A DNA stretch of 64,000 nucleotides from Spiribacter halobius (lineage in GTDB: Bacteria; Pseudomonadota; Gammaproteobacteria; Nitrococcales; Nitrococcaceae). Under the pieces are notes generated by a model. It was not told the DNA's origin, made no database searches, and worked only from the letters and a program-made list of their open reading frames with translations. The translations under genes were made by a program, and so were the position numbers. Location of the stretch: assembly GCF_020883455.1 (NCBI RefSeq), contig NZ_CP086615.1, positions 372,001 through 436,000 on the forward strand, in the 5' to 3' direction. Positions 2,938 to 55,474 of the stretch are shown here, in pieces (position 1 is the stretch's first letter; each line of letters begins with the position of its first letter).

Positions 2938-4056
2938 ATGGATTTCAATGCCCTGCTCGAGCTACTGGTCAACAAGAAGGGCTCGGACCTGTTCATCACC
3001 GCGGGCCTGCCGCCGAGCATGAAGGTGGCCGGGCGGATCATGCCCATCACCAAGAACCCCCTCGGCGCCGAGCAGGCCCGGCAGGTGGTCTACTCGATCA
3101 TGAGCGAGCGCCAGCGCGAGGAGTTCGACGCCACCCACGAGTGCAACTTTGCCATCAGCGCGAAGGGCCTCGGGCGCTTCCGCGTCAGCGCCTTCTACCA
3201 GCGCAACAACGTGGGCATGGTGCTGCGCCGGATCGAGACCGAGATCCCGAGCATCGAGGCGCTGCGGCTGCCGCCGATCCTGAAGGATCTGTCCATGACC
3301 AAGCGCGGGCTGATCATCTTCGTCGGCGCCACGGGCACCGGCAAGTCCACCTCGCTTGCCTCGATGATCGGCTACCGCAACCACAACTCCACCGGACACA
3401 TCATCACCATCGAGGACCCCATCGAGTACATGCACGCCCACCAGGGCTGCATCGTCACCCAGCGCGAGGTGGGCATCGATACCGAGTCCTTCGAGGTGGC
3501 GCTGAAGAACACCCTGCGCCAGGCCCCGGACGTGATCCTGATCGGCGAGATCCGCGCCCGCGAGACCATGGACTACGCCATCGCCTTCGCCGAGACCGGT
3601 CACCTGTGCCTGGCGACGCTGCACGCCAACAACGCCAACCAGGCGATGGACCGCATCATCAACTTCTTCCCCTCGGACCGCCGCGATCAGCTCTTCACCG
3701 ACCTCTCGCTGAACCTGAAGGCGGTGATTGCCCAGCAGCTCATCCCGACCCCGGACGGCAAGGGCCGCGTGCCGGCGGTGGAGATTCTCATCGGCACCCC
3801 GCTGGTCGCGGACAAGATCCACAACGGCGAGGTGCACGAGCTGAAGGAGATCATGAAGCGTTCCGGCGAGCAGGGCATGCAGACCTTCGACCGCCATCTC
3901 TATCAGCTCTACGCCGAGGGCTCCATCACCTACGAGGACGCCCTGCGCTTCGCCGACTCCGCCAACGAGGTCCGCCTGATGGCCAAGCTCGGCGACTCCC
4001 ACGCCGAGGCGCGCATGCAGCAGGCGACGGAGGGGATCAAGCTCGTGGACGAGTGA
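2938..4056 (+). CDS. pilU: PilT-dependent retraction ATPase PilU
   Basis: A 372-residue paralogue of PilT that assists retraction under load. Walker A is GATGTGKST (Lys136) and Walker B lies in APDVILIGEIRA; the His box reads HLCLATLHANNA. The C-terminal extension past 340 residues is typical of PilU rather than PilT. I chose the ATG at 2938 because TGGAGG lies 5 bases before it and PilU proteins begin MDFNALLELLVNK; the frame is open further upstream but only inside pilT. The last codons (LVDE) form one arm of the downstream hairpin at 4041-4083. Confidence 0.96.
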   Translation: MDFNALLELLVNKKGSDLFITAGLPPSMKVAGRIMPITKNPLGAEQARQVVYSIMSERQREEFDATHECNFAISAKGLGRFRVSAFYQRNNVGMVLRRIETEIPSIEALRLPPILKDLSMTKRGLIIFVGATGTGKSTSLASMIGYRNHNSTGHIITIEDPIEYMHAHQGCIVTQREVGIDTESFEVALKNTLRQAPDVILIGEIRARETMDYAIAFAETGHLCLATLHANNANQAMDRIINFFPSDRRDQLFTDLSLNLKAVIAQQLIPTPDGKGRVPAVEILIGTPLVADKIHNGEVHELKEIMKRSGEQGMQTFDRHLYQLYAEGSITYEDALRFADSANEVRLMAKLGDSHAEARMQQATEGIKLVDE

Positions 4057-4083
4057 GGGCCTTGCCCTCACTCGCCCACGAGC
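4041..4083 (+). terminator. stop-spanning inverted duplication of the pilU 3' end
   Basis: The last 19 bases of the pilU end (4041-4059, including the TGA) reappear as an inverted copy at 4065-4083 with one mismatch, separated by a 5-base loop. The RNA would form a stable GC-rich hairpin directly at the end of the operon. No U-run follows; a 7-nt repeat array does. Confidence 0.75.
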
Positions 4084-29755: not shown

Positions 29756-30769
29756 ATGGCGATCAAGGTTGGCATCAACGGCTATGGGCGCATCGGCCGC
29801 AACGTGCTGCGCGCGCTGTACGAGTCGGGGCGCAGCGACGAGATCCGCGTGGTGGCGATCAACGACCTCGGCGACGCCGAGACCAACGCCCACCTCACCC
29901 GCTTCGACACCGCCCACGGCCGCTTCCCGGGGACCGTGGAGGTGAGCGACGGCAATCTCGTGGTCAACGGCGACGCCATCCGCGTGCTGGCCGAGCGCGA
30001 TCCCGCGAAGCTTCCCTGGGGCGATCTCGGGGTGGACGTGGTGCTGGAGTGCACCGGCCTGTTCGCGAGCAAGGAGAAGGCCTCCGCGCACCTGCAGGGC
30101 GGCGCGAAGAAGGTGATCATCTCCGCACCGGCGGGCAAGGAGGTGGACGCCTCCGTGGTCTACGGCGTCAACCACCACGTGCTGCGCCCCGAGCACCAGG
30201 TGATCTCCAACGCCTCCTGCACCACCAACTGCCTCGCGCCCATCGTCAAGCCGCTGCACGAGCGCATCGGCCTCGAGCAGGGCCTGATGACCACGGTGCA
30301 TGCCTACACCAACGACCAGGTCCTCACCGACGTCTACCACAAGGATCTGCGCCGGGCCCGCAGCGCGACCATGTCGCAGATCCCGACCAAGACGGGCGCC
30401 GCCGCCATGGTGGGCCTGGTGATGCCGGAGCTGGACGGCCGCCTGGACGGCTACGCCATCCGCATCCCCACCATCAACGTCTCCATCGTGGATCTCACCT
30501 TCACCGCCGCCCGCGAGACGAGCGTGAAGGAGGTGAACAGCATCCTGCGCGAGGCCGCGGAGGGCGAGCTCAAGGGTGTGCTCGCGTACAACGAGGCACC
30601 GCTGGTGTCCGTGGACTTCAACCACGACCCGCACTCGTCGATCTTCGACGCCACCCTCACCAAGGTGGGCGGCGGCCGCCTGGTCAAGGCCTGCGCCTGG
30701 TATGACAACGAGTGGGGCTTCTCCAACCGCATGCTCGACACCACGGTCGCGCTCATGAACGCGCGCTGA
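29756..30769 (+). CDS. gap: type I glyceraldehyde-3-phosphate dehydrogenase
   Basis: A 337-residue glycolytic/gluconeogenic dehydrogenase. NAD-binding [15 protein letters not shown] is at the N-terminus; the catalytic Cys is in [12 protein letters not shown] and the C-terminal [14 protein letters not shown] is intact. The order tkt-gap-pgk-pyk makes this a central-carbon cluster. GGAGAAG precedes the ATG. The last bases of the gene are repeated in inverted form directly after the stop (30748-30785). Confidence 0.97.
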
Positions 30770-30785
30770 CGCGTTCATGAGCGCG
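30748..30785 (+). terminator. stop-spanning inverted duplication of the gap 3' end
   Basis: Bases 30748-30763 are repeated as a perfect 16-bp inverted copy at 30770-30785. The 6-base loop CGCTGA contains the stop codon TGA (30767-30769). No U-run follows; a CAAGTNN heptad array starts at once. Confidence 0.78.
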
Positions 30786-30943
30786 AGTTGCAAGTAACAA
30801 GAAGCAAGTCGCAAGTCGCAAGTAACAAGTAACAAGCGGGAAGCGGGTAGCCACGCCGACCTGGCAGCGCGTTGCGATGCCGGGGAGCTGAGAGCTCTCA
30901 TCTCGCTTGCAACTTGCAACTTGCAACTTGCCACTTGCCACTC
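30786..30943 (+). repeat. CAAGTNN heptad array with fold-back between gap and pgk
   Basis: The left half is six or seven tandem 7-nt units (CAAGTAA, CAAGAAG, CAAGTCG). The right half (about 30905-30943) is the reverse complement pattern CTTGCAA/CTTGCCA, also with a 7-base period. Some 65 unrelated bases lie between. This is a different sequence family from the TTCAAAG arrays but has the same period, the same fold-back plan and the same place after a gene end. Confidence 0.8.
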
Positions 30944-33853: not shown

Positions 33854-33881
33854 GTCATCTTTGAACTCGAAACTCCGCGAA

Positions 33882-33926
33882 GCGGAGCGCCGGCTATGGG
33901 GCCTCGCCGCATAGCCGACGCTCCGC
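33882..33926 (-). terminator. stop-spanning inverted duplication of the purC 3' end
   Basis: The gene-side arm 33910-33926 is repeated in inverted form at 33882-33898 over 17 bases with one wobble. The loop is 11 bases and the TAG stop (33894-33896) lies in the copied arm. A further small hairpin CTCCGC-TTC-GCGGAG follows, then GAGTTTCGAGTTCAAAG, the start of the array on this strand. Confidence 0.75.
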
Positions 33927-34796
33927 CTCGCGGTACTTGTCGGCCGTACGCGCCACGATCTCCTCGGGTAGATGCGGGGCCGGCGGGGTCTTGTCCCAGT
34001 CCAGGGTCTCCAGGTAGTCGCGGACGTACTGCTTGTCGAAGCTCGGCGGGGAGCTGCCCGGCTGCCACGCGTCGGCGGGCCAGAAGCGGCTGGAGTCCGG
34101 GGTCAGGGCCTCGTCGATCCACACCAGGCGGCCCTCCGGGTCGTGGCCGAACTCGAACTTGGTGTCGGCGATGAGGATGCCCCGGTCCCGGGCATGGGCT
34201 GCAGCCTCGGTGTAGATCGCCAGGGTCAGCCGGCGGATGGCCTCTGCCGTCTCCCGGCCCACGGCCGCCACCACCGCCTCGAAGCTCACGTTCTCGTCGT
34301 GATCGCCCGCTGCCGCCTTGGTGGAGGGGGTGAAGATCGGCTCCGGCAGGCGGTCGGCCTGGCGCAGGCCCGGGGGCAGCGCGATGCCGCAGACCGCGCC
34401 GGTAGCCTGGTAGTCCTTCCAGCCCGAGCCAATCAGGTAGCCCCGGGCAATCGCCTCCACCGGCAGCGGGGTCAGCCGTCGCACCAGCATGGCGCGGTCC
34501 TCGACCTGGGCGCGCTCCGCCGGGTCCTCGAGTACCGCCTCAATCGGGGTGTCCAGGAGGTGGGTGGCAACATGGTGCCCGAGCCGGCCGAACCAGAAGC
34601 GCGAGAGCCGGGTCAGGACGGCGCCCTTGCCTGGAATGGGGTCGGGCAGGATCACGTCGAAGGCGGAGAGCCGGTCGGTTGCCACCACCAGCAGGCGATC
34701 GTCGTCGACGGCGTAGACGTCACGCACCTTGCCCCGCTGCAGCAGGGGCAGGCTGGTCAGCTCGCTGCGAAACAGGCGCTCGGGGGTCGCTGGCAT
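33894..34796 (-). CDS. purC: phosphoribosylaminoimidazole-succinocarboxamide synthase
   Basis: A 300-residue SAICAR synthase of purine synthesis, of the longer type found in yeast and many proteobacteria. [22 protein letters not shown] and [16 protein letters not shown] are at the N-terminus, and the C-terminal [29 protein letters not shown] is the second signature. It is convergent with pyk and divergent from the DUF156 regulator. Confidence 0.96.
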
Positions 34797-50760: not shown

Positions 50761-51557
50761 GCGACGGCACCCCCGATATCCTGCGCCGCATCCTGCAGCG
50801 CAAGGCGGAGATCGTCGCCGAGCGCAGCGAGCAGATCGGCCTGCGGGCGTTCAGCACCCGCGTCGAGCAGGCGCCGCCGGTGCGCGGCTTCCGCGCCGCC
50901 CTGGAGGCGCGGATCGGCGCCGGCGACGCCGCCGTGATCGCCGAGGTGAAAAAGGCCTCCCCCAGCAAGGGCGTGCTGCGGGAGGCCTTCGACCCCGCCG
51001 CCATCGCCCGCAGCTACGAGGCCGCCGGCGCCGCCTGTCTTTCGGTGCTCACCGACGAGGACTTCTTCCAGGGCCGCGACGAGGACCTGCAGCTCGCCCG
51101 CGGCGCCTGCGGCCTGCCGGTGCTGCGCAAGGACTTCATCATCGATGCCTATCAGGTCTACGAGGCCCGTGCACTGGGAGCGGACTGCATCCTGCTGATC
51201 GTCGCCGCCCTCGGCGACGCCACCCTGAAGGAGCTGCACCTCCTCGGCCAGGAGCTCGGCATGGACGTGCTGGTTGAGGTCCACGACGCCGAGGAGCTCG
51301 ACCGGGCGCTCGCCATCGGCGCGGAGCTCATCGGCATCAACAACCGCGATCTGCGCACCTTCGAGACCGACATCGATACCACCCTGCGCCTGCGCGAGCG
51401 CCTCCCGGAAGAGGCCCTCGTGGTCACCGAAAGCGGCATCCACACCGCGGAGGAGGTCGCCCACCTCCGCCGGCACGGGGTACACGCGTTTCTGGTGGGG
51501 GAGGCGTTCATGCGGGAACCGGACCCGGGCCGCAAGCTGGCGGAGCTCTTCGGCTAA
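50757..51557 (+). CDS. trpC: indole-3-glycerol-phosphate synthase
   Basis: A 266-residue TIM-barrel enzyme. [17 protein letters not shown] carries the catalytic Lys; [18 protein letters not shown] and [22 protein letters not shown] follow; [10 protein letters not shown] closes the phosphate site. It ends the trpEGDC unit. The final 13 codons are repeated as a perfect inverted copy directly after the stop. Confidence 0.97.
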
Positions 51558-51594
51558 CGCCGTCGAGCTCCGCCAGCTTGCGGCCCGGGTCCGG
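51519..51594 (+). terminator. 30-bp perfect inverted duplication of the trpC 3' end
   Basis: Bases 51519-51548, coding for the trpC C-terminus, are repeated exactly in inverted form at 51565-51594. The 16-base centre contains a further CGGC-TAAC-GCCG mini-hairpin whose apex holds the TAA stop (51555-51557). This is the longest perfect inverted repeat in the set. Confidence 0.85.
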
Positions 51595-51696
51595 AGTTCA
51601 AAGTTCAAGGTTCAAAGTTCAAAGACCGCAAGAGCGAGCGTCGGGGCACTGGCTAGCTCGCTCGGTCTTTGAACTTTGAACTTGCAACTTTGAACT
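51595..51696. repeat. fold-back TTCAAAG array between trpC and crp
   Basis: The left arm (51595-51628) has five 7-nt TTCAAAG/TTCAAGG units; the right arm (about 51663-51696) is its near-perfect reverse complement, differing at a few positions. AGCGAGC/GCTCGCT extends the pairing inwards. Each end abuts the inverted copy of the neighbouring gene's 3' end. Confidence 0.85.
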
Positions 51697-51730
51697 ATGG
51701 TGATTTTCAACGCGTGTTGAAAATCACCAT
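51697..51730 (-). terminator. stop-spanning inverted duplication of the crp 3' end
   Basis: The crp codons at 51716-51730 are repeated as a perfect 15-bp inverted copy at 51697-51711 with a 4-base loop. The TGA stop (51707-51709) lies in the copied arm. The TTCAAAG array follows on the gene's strand. Confidence 0.82.
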
Positions 51731-53865: not shown

Positions 53866-53909
53866 CCCGCCTCTTGATCGGGAGCGACGGCTTCGGAGAG
53901 CTTTTCCCA

Positions 53910-54338
53910 ATGAGGACCTTCAGCGCCAAACCGGCGGACGTGCAGCGCGACTGGTACGTGGTGGATGCCACCGACAAGACACTCGGTCGGCTCGCCTCGG
54001 AGATCGCCTTCCGCCTGCGCGGCAAGCACAAGGCCGAGTTCACGCCCCACGTGGACACCGGTGACTACATCGTCGTGGTGAACGCCGAGCGCGTGGCCTT
54101 GACCGGCCGCAAGGCCTCGCAGAAGACCTACCACCGGTTTACCGGCTATGTGGGCCACATGAAGAGCATCACCTTCGACAAGCTCATCACGAGCCACCCG
54201 GAGCGGGCCATCGAGCACGCCGTGCGGGGCATGCTGCCGAAGAACCGCCTCGGGCGGCAGATGATCAAGAAGCTCAAGGTCTACAGCGGCCCCGAGCACA
54301 ACCATCACGCCCAGCAGCCGCAGGCGCTGGAGATCTGA
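53910..54338 (+). CDS. rplM: 50S ribosomal protein L13
   Basis: A 142-residue ribosomal protein. [30 protein letters not shown] is the L13 start; [18 protein letters not shown] and [19 protein letters not shown] follow. GGAGAG lies 9 bases before the ATG. rpsI follows 25 bases later, the universal L13-S9 operon. Confidence 0.98.
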
Positions 54339-54363: not shown

Positions 54364-54756
54364 ATGGCAACCGAGCAGTATTACGGAACCGGCCGCCGCA
54401 AGACCTCCTCCGCGCGGGTCTACCTGCGCCCGGGGCAGGGACAGATCACCGTCAACGGGCGGCCGCTGGATCAGTACTTCGGGCGCGAGACCGCCCGCAT
54501 GGTGGTGCGCCAGCCCCTGGAGCTCACCGAGACTACCGACAAGCTGGACGTCAATGTTACGGTCTTTGGCGGTGGTTCGAGCGGTCAGGCCGGCGCCATC
54601 CGCCACGGCATCACCCGGGCGCTGGTCCAGTACGACGAGGACATGAAGAGCGGCCTCCGCCGCGCCGGCCTCGTCACCCGCGACGCCCGCATGGTGGAGC
54701 GCAAGAAGATCGGCCTGCACAAGGCGCGCCGGGCCACCCAGTTCTCCAAGCGCTGA
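54364..54756 (+). CDS. rpsI: 30S ribosomal protein S9
   Basis: A 130-residue ribosomal protein. [27 protein letters not shown] is the S9 N-terminus, [14 protein letters not shown] the central motif and the C-terminus is the basic [11 protein letters not shown] that reaches the P-site tRNA. It lies 11 bases upstream of tRNA-Gln, so the tRNA may be processed from the ribosomal-protein transcript. Confidence 0.98.
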
Positions 54757-54767
54757 TCACGGTTCAT

Positions 54768-54841
54768 TGGGGGATCGTCTAGCGGTAGGACAGCGGACTC
54801 TGACTCCGTTAACCCAGGTTCGAATCCTGGTCCCCCAGCCA
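54768..54841 (+). tRNA. tRNA-Gln (anticodon CTG)
   Basis: All four arms form: acceptor TGGGGGA/TCCCCCA, D arm GTC-TAGCGGTAG-GAC, anticodon stem GCGGA/TCCGT with loop CTCTGAC (anticodon CTG, reads CAG), and T arm CCAGG-TTCGAAT-CCTGG. The discriminator is G and CCA is encoded. The first base is T pairing with A, as in E. coli tRNA-Gln. Confidence 0.97.
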
Positions 54842-54890
54842 ACATGAAAAAGGCCCGCCACCGAGCGGGCCTTTTTCATGTTGGCTGGGG
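54833..54890 (+). terminator. terminator built from an inverted copy of the tRNA-Gln 3' end
   Basis: A perfect 26-bp inverted repeat joins 54833-54858 to 54865-54890 with a 6-base loop. The left arm begins inside the tRNA acceptor strand (CCCCAGCCA), so the 3' end of the tRNA is itself duplicated in inverted form downstream. The inner part is a normal AAAAAGGCCCGC/GCGGGCCTTTTT terminator usable in both directions. Confidence 0.9.
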
Positions 54891-54962
54891 CACCCGCCCG
54901 GCGATCGATCCGCTCACCCGGGTGCGCCGGCGCTCAGCGCGGCAACGTCATCTTCGCTTGTC

Positions 54963-55102
54963 TATACTCCCGGCGTTTGCCGCCAGGGATGTGCTTAAGG
55001 CCTGTGCCTACCCGGGCCTGCACGGGCAGACGCGGGCCCGAACTCCTGGCGGCATCTCACCTGCATTGAGGACCTCCAGAACAAAAAACAGAGGTAATAC
55101 CC
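54963..55102 (+). promoter_or_regulatory. promoter -10 and structured leader before the lipoprotein gene
   Basis: TATACT (54963-54968) is a good -10; the -35 is poor. The leader is closed by a perfect 9-bp pair GCCGCCAGG (54979-54987) with CCTGGCGGC (55045-55053), and CGGGCC/GGCCCG can pair inside. No known riboswitch motif was recognised. Confidence 0.45.
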
Positions 55103-55474
55103 ATGACAGCTCGCACCCTGCCATTGGCCACGATCCTGCTGCTCGCCCTGTTTCTTGCTGCCTGCGCGACCACCTCGGGAACCCAGGTTTCGGACGACGA
55201 CCTTGGGCAGATCACGAAAGGGGAGACGACCTACTCCGAAGTCATCGAGCGCCTCGGCGAGCCGGACTCGACGAAGACCACCGGTGAAGGCCGCATGATC
55301 GCGTACAACTACTCCGAGGCGCGCCCTGGCCTGCTGAGCTACGTGCCGTACGCCTCCGCCCTGAGCAAGACCGACACCGAGTACCGTGTCGTTTACATCT
55401 TCTTCGATGACAGCGACGTTGTTCGCGAGGTGCAGGTGGAAGACGGCGGCAGCGAGAGCGGGACGTCGCTTTAG
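55103..55474 (+). CDS. SmpA/BamE-like outer-membrane lipoprotein
   Basis: A 123-residue lipoprotein. The signal peptide TLPLATILLLALFLAACA ends in the lipobox LAAC (Cys21). The mature part has ITKGETTYSEVIERLGEPDSTKT, the BamE/SmpA-type motif, and later DTEYRVVYIFFDDSDVVREVQVE. It is longer in the middle than BamE itself, so a BamE paralogue is more likely than the assembly factor. It is preceded by an unusually structured leader. Confidence 0.82.
   Translation: MTARTLPLATILLLALFLAACATTSGTQVSDDDLGQITKGETTYSEVIERLGEPDSTKTTGEGRMIAYNYSEARPGLLSYVPYASALSKTDTEYRVVYIFFDDSDVVREVQVEDGGSESGTSL

Follow-up and report, generated by a model that had tools for sequence, protein, structure and literature searches.

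The tRNA-Gln(CTG) gene of Spiribacter halobius is followed by a hairpin, one arm of which begins inside the acceptor strand of the mature tRNA. The question raised by this locus is whether such a structure acts on the tRNA, for example by competing with its folding or guiding its 3' processing, or whether it reflects how the DNA itself was copied. We analyzed a window of 64,000 nucleotides (contig NZ_CP086615.1, positions 372,001 to 436,000), in which the gene order is rplM-rpsI-tRNA-Gln(CTG), hairpin, BamE-domain gene (Table 1). The S. halobius genome (G000; 4.17 Mb, one contig) was compared with genomes that all lie outside its genus; G003 and G012 belong to the same family, and relatives found by way of ribosomal protein S9 include Arhodomonas aquaeolei and Spiribacter.

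Table 1. Features of the tRNA-Gln(CTG) locus in window coordinates.
Feature	Position	Strand	Basis or remark
rplM	53874-54338	+	Precedes rpsI; Pfam PF00572
rpsI (ribosomal protein S9)	54364-54756	+	Upstream of tRNA-Gln; Pfam PF00380
tRNA-Gln(CTG), CCA encoded at 54839-54841	54768-54841	+	ARAGORN; RF00005, 63.3 bits
Extended inverted repeat, 30-nt arms, 1 mismatch	54829-54894	+	Sequence
Inverted repeat, left arm; tRNA 3' end is its first 9 bases	54833-54858	+	Sequence
Predicted inner terminator, AAAAAGGCCCGC-loop-GCGGGCCTTTTT, T run 54872-54876	54847-54876	+	Sequence; fold of transcript to 54878
Loop CACCGA, 6 nt	54859-54864	+	Sequence
Inverted repeat, right arm	54865-54890	+	Sequence
Mirror segment CATGTTGGCTGGGG past the T run, inverted copy of 54833-54846 (tRNA 3' end and spacer)	54877-54890	+	Sequence
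BamE-domain lipoprotein, next gene	55103-55474	+	Pfam PF04355, 29.5 bits

An initial reading of the letters alone (the sequence-only reading) had described a perfect 26-bp inverted repeat entering the acceptor strand, and this description holds: the arms are complementary at 26 of 26 positions across a 6-nt loop, and within the mature tRNA nine bases, CCCCAGCCA (54833-54841), are complementary to 54882-54890. When one mismatch is allowed, the arms lengthen to 54829 and 54894 (30 nt, 97%) and 13 mature-tRNA bases are paired. It was also correct that protein-coding constraint is absent here, as the repeat involves no protein. The stem can be divided into an inner 12 bp (54847-54858 with 54865-54876) and an outer 14 bp (54833-54846 with 54877-54890). 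Features of an intrinsic terminator are present 3' of the gene (a GGCCCGC/GCGGGCC stem, a loop of 6, and T5), and a scan with a terminator consensus listed this hairpin in its minus-strand reading alone. Judged by these features, the inner 12 bp together with TTTTT is an ordinary intrinsic terminator, and the outer 14 bp lie beyond the predicted termination point. Like a Rho-independent terminator, the hairpin has a GC-rich stem, a short loop, and a T run, and it immediately follows a tRNA gene; unlike one, it has a stem that extends beyond the T run by 14 perfect pairs and takes in 9 to 13 bases of the mature tRNA.

The inverted repeat is real and exceeds what chance produces. The RNA fold of the hairpin has a z of −6.4, with none of 200 shuffles equally stable; inverted repeats with a score of 14 or more number 38 in 624 kb of the S. 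halobius genome versus one in a Markov-1 control; and by our own arithmetic the 14 additional contiguous pairs outside the terminator core have a p of ∼0.29^14 = 3×10−8 per hairpin. With all three counting against it, accidental complementarity beside a terminator has a virtually nil probability as the source of this structure.

Fold predictions, whose energies are equilibrium values only, bear on whether the mirror could affect the tRNA. A transcript ending at 54878 folds into a cloverleaf plus the terminator hairpin (−53.1 kcal/mol), and in successively longer prefixes the acceptor stem is kept to 54886 and lost from 54889 on, so that pairing with the acceptor strand needs a prefix that reaches at least 54889. 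In the full read-through RNA the long hairpin (−73.0 kcal/mol) is favored over the fold that keeps the acceptor stem (−69.6 kcal/mol) by 3.4 kcal/mol, and the latter, tRNA-intact fold still has a 21-bp stem adjoining the cloverleaf. At intrinsic terminators, RNA polymerase releases the RNA near the T run. Release would thus be expected before the right half of the outer stem, which should normally be untranscribed, and by this model the mirror is probably without effect on the tRNA. Competition with acceptor-stem folding, which the sequence-only reading had proposed, was discarded as a main function, as it fails for terminated RNAs: the mirror is reached by read-through only, and its advantage there is 3.4 kcal/mol. 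The companion proposal of guided 3' processing is left unsupported by the same observations.

The 3' end of tRNA-Gln is nearly invariant in about 50 relatives and the flank past the terminator is variable, which points to the flank as the side that received the copy. With an anchored, gap-tolerant extension, complementarity of the flank to the tRNA part was found at a p of 0.05 or less in the window genome and in nine relatives (L002, L003, L004, L009, L010, L011, L016, L017, and L129). In these relatives, which are of several genera, it is partial and decayed, and some of the decayed mirrors reach the T-arm. Flank complementarity thus recurs among relatives while being neither universal nor conserved in depth. 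Most of the relatives' tRNA-Gln hairpins end at or before CCA. In one relative (L002) the hairpin has changed on both sides (TTCAT/ATGAA versus TCCAT/ATGGA).

Other tRNA genes place this depth in perspective. Of 45 S. halobius tRNA genes scored, just two are followed by a strong hairpin that enters the mature tRNA, to a depth of 13 nt (one mismatch) at Gln(CTG) and of 6 nt at Leu(CAG). The sequence-only reading had tied its standing partly to such a scan of the genome's tRNA genes, and as tRNA-Leu(CAG) shows the same feature, it does not fail on that ground. Elsewhere, the count was 0 of 39 in G003, 0 of 39 in G026, and 2 of 40 in G008 (2 nt each), and of 47 tRNA genes sampled in E. coli, five had a strong hairpin and none had one entering the tRNA. 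In a non-random set of 88 strong tRNA 3' hairpins of the order, drawn from loci picked for tRNA-Gln and RtT, the pairing takes in one or more bases of the tRNA end in 28; pairs with CCA are common and the sequences involved differ. The generalization that ordinary terminators stay out of the mature tRNA therefore fails in this order, although a reach of 9 to 13 nt is found at the window locus only.

Several candidate explanations were discarded. A general rule by which terminators extend past the T run was not seen, in that the few terminators detected in four genomes, a small number, showed no conserved pairing there. No integrative element or direct repeat adjoins the window tRNA-Gln as would befit an attachment site; direct repeats in relatives belong mostly to RtT-like units. 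A dispersed repeat is not the source of the inverted T-arm at the relatives' tRNA-Gln, as the motif is confined to that locus. A literature search yielded no paper on tRNA terminators that mirror the tRNA end.

A related and more widespread arrangement emerged when each tRNA's own 3' half was sought downstream in inverted orientation. A 30-nt mirror with few mismatches (score 25) follows tRNA-Arg(ACG) of G008 (L365), and further strong mirrors follow Ser(CGA), Ser(TGA), and Arg(CCG) in S. halobius, three Ser genes in G008, and Arg(CCG) in G026. Inverted copies of the gene's own T-arm are found downstream of tRNA-Arg, Ser, Gln, and Tyr, including E. coli Tyr, and also of E. coli Lys. In 28 units, including E. 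coli tyrT/tyrV, an inverted T-arm copy occurs together with a direct copy of the tRNA 3' end that is usually 19 nt long; for 26 of these units, no tRNA for another amino acid matches the inverted copy as well as its own tRNA does. Of 54 genomes of the order, 17 have matches resembling RtT RNA (RF00391; E. coli tyrT operon), and in G014, G015, and G032 such a match lies at the tRNA-Gln locus; with a covariance model score of at least 45 bits as the criterion, the tRNA-Gln locus L016 passes (45.7), and L002, L003, L365, and L366 fall below. In S. halobius itself, tRNA-Arg(CCG) and tRNA-Ser(TGA) are each followed by an RtT-like unit, and Ser(CGA) by a partial one. A conserved GGTTCGA close by is able to pair with the inverted T-arm (21-25 with 48-52, nearly invariant pairs), so the T-arm mirror may be partly kept by RtT structure, beyond mutation alone; the consensus fold of RtT-like units recovered 13 pairs only, with little covariation.

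Individual loci in this survey are recorded here. RtT-like units with a T-arm mirror are L033, L057, and L050 in S. halobius (L050 without a direct copy), L365, L366, L368, and L370 in G008, L412-L434, and L435 in E. coli. After the tRNA-Lys terminators of E. coli lysQ (L438) and lysV (L446) lies an inverted T-arm-like copy, GATTCGAACCTGCAG. In G032, 3' of tRNA-Gln (L003), a large palindromic insert (CTGGGCCGAGGTGATACGTATTGCACC and onward, plus its inverse) is found within a second copy of the tRNA 3' end and terminator, and in S. halobius group II intron domains lie downstream of tRNA-Arg(ACG)/Ser(GCT) (L046, 1751-2037).

Mirrored ends are not restricted to tRNA genes. In a 1.02-Mb sample of S. 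halobius, which together with the tRNA loci is the basis of our genome-wide counts and in which genes were called by a simple in-house codon model, 24 inverted repeats have their center no more than 12 bases from a predicted stop codon, against none in the 400 kb taken from each of G026, G003, and G008. By inspection, almost all of them end at the start of an array of degenerate AGTTCAA heptamers or a variant (GTTGCAA, GTGGCAA). A site-specific stem with a score of 9 or more, an inverted copy of as much as 30 bp of neighboring sequence, abuts 33 of 79 arrays, with the caveat that at 10 arrays a score of 9 was also attained by the best of 30 shuffles; the mean score of stems at array edges was 9.8 versus 4.5 for shuffled flanks. 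The arrays often occur in inward-facing pairs (e.g., L191, L193, L203, and L077). The exact 14-mer AGTTCAAAGTTCAA has 76 copies in S. halobius and one elsewhere in the order, and a distant gammaproteobacterium (G246) has 14 (L304-L315). At tRNA-Leu(CAG) (L061, around 840-925), a 24-bp perfect stem ends exactly at AGTTCAAAG, and by this layout the locus is a member of the heptamer-element class. A literature search found no paper on AGTTCAA arrays; the nearest published case is that of the TAACTGA heptamer repeats of Beggiatoaceae, the available part of whose description mentions no mirrored gene ends (PMC4679880).

Within the window, a palindromic AGTTCAA-heptamer element (51595-51696) lies between two convergent genes, one 3' end of which is mirrored at 51519-51594 with the stop codon in a 4-nt loop and the other at 51697-51730; further mirrored gene ends are found at 4041-4083, 30747-30786, and 33875-33933. 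In G045 (L301, about 1480-1525), an AGTTCAA array begins directly after a terminator hairpin. A separate family of dispersed intergenic palindromes in S. halobius has a core like TCTCACCGATCCGCG (e.g., L078 16442-16503, L064 10039-10094, and L075 6506-6563).

These surveys supply the main alternatives for the window locus. One is that it is the remnant of an ancestral RtT repeat behind tRNA-Gln, the first part of which mirrored the tRNA 3' half and of which the core and T-arm mirror were lost, leaving the mirror next to the terminator. RtT RNA is indeed similar in that tRNA 3'-end sequence is duplicated past the gene, in some relatives (L002, L003, and L016) the tRNA-Gln locus itself has an RtT-like unit with an inverted host T-arm, and S. 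halobius has such units at Arg and Ser genes. The window locus, in contrast, has no RtT core: RF00391 found no match in 54700-55150 at E up to 10, so RtT identity was rejected, and with neither a direct 19-nt copy nor a T-arm mirror the locus is absent from the 28 units. Moreover, decay in RtT units usually affects the acceptor portion of the mirror, which is perfect here. We regard a remnant as unlikely, if still worth entertaining. A common origin with the heptamer-element mirrors, the array having since been lost, draws on the tRNA-Leu(CAG) mirror in the same genome, but the tRNA-Gln arm does not end at an array, for which reason it was not classed as such a mirror, and 54891-55102 holds neither an array nor a trace of one. 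Since almost all stop-centered mirrors retain their array, and array-free relatives have partial tRNA-Gln mirrors, such an origin seems very unlikely. The sequence-only reading had linked tRNA-Gln to mirrored 3' ends of protein genes. The idea that mirrored gene 3' ends are a wider feature of this genome is borne out for protein genes and tRNA-Leu(CAG), and a cause shared with tRNA-Gln is unproven.

Selection could also act on RNA that reads through the T run, in which the full stem would form and be cut (e.g., by RNase III), freeing the tRNA precursor or destroying the read-through RNA. The frequency of CCA-deep hairpins with different sequences at tRNA genes of the order is in keeping with this idea, as is the ability of read-through RNA to keep the cloverleaf with the 21-bp stem beside it. 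Pairing depth, however, is unconserved at the relatives' tRNA-Gln, conserved pairing past the T run was not seen at the few other terminators found in the four genomes, and the 9- to 13-nt reach is unique to the window locus, so we judge a read-through function to be quite unlikely. The tRNA 3' external transcribed spacer RNAs (E. coli 3'ETS-leuZ) offer a parallel in being 3' trailers downstream of a tRNA, but a stable trailer RNA would be hypothetical here, and the tRNA-Gln mirror lies past the predicted transcript end.

The reading we prefer, and consider probable though far from certain, is that the tRNA-Gln hairpin is an intrinsic terminator enlarged at the DNA level by a template switch (a quasipalindrome), and that the mirror is normally untranscribed and neutral. 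The functional terminator would be the inner 12-bp stem with its T run. DNA synthesis at this hairpin would switch template, taking either its own or the sister strand, and add a reverse copy of the tRNA 3' end on the non-coding side by quasipalindrome correction or extension, giving the outer 14 bp. RNA polymerase would stop at the T run, leaving the tRNA undisturbed, and the change would have persisted because only non-coding DNA was altered. Perfect stems have been described as arising by template switching (PMC8794818), and quasipalindrome mutations are described in E. coli (PMC7202029); the tRNA-Gln hairpin resembles such products in its perfect inverted repeat with a short spacer, the conserved gene on one side and what appears to be new sequence on the other. 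It differs from them in that the mechanism is read from anatomy alone.

Arguing for a template switch, perfect 26-bp arms around a 6-nt loop are a geometry hardly reachable by single substitutions, and the recurrent, partial, and decayed complementarity in several genera is as would be expected of a recurring event followed by decay. The 30-nt mirror after tRNA-Arg(ACG) of G008 adds to this case, as do the conserved tRNA side and the intact cloverleaf of the transcript to 54878. Arguing against it, the hairpins paired to CCA with differing sequences and the two-sided change in L002 could also be produced by selection on read-through RNA. T5 is short, and termination at this T run is a prediction, as is the neutrality of the mirror.

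A single mechanism of fold-back DNA synthesis may repeatedly mirror the 3' ends of this lineage's tRNA and protein genes, accounting for tRNA-Gln, tRNA-Leu(CAG), the T-arm mirrors of RtT-like units, and the heptamer-element mirrors; a dedicated mobile element might take part in it, or an end-healing process that adds AGTTCAA repeats after fold-back. We offer this as speculation and give it little credence at present. The tRNA-Gln locus is in itself a clear example of a terminator palindrome that, most likely through copying of the DNA, has come to extend into an RNA gene, and it cautions against taking such palindromes for RNA regulators. It also belongs beside two wider patterns: in several Gammaproteobacteria, including E. 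coli, inverted copies of the gene's own tRNA follow tRNA genes, often in RtT-like units, and in S. halobius the borders of heptamer-repeat elements are often perfect mirrors of the adjoining genes, which would make insertion by fold-back open to a direct test.
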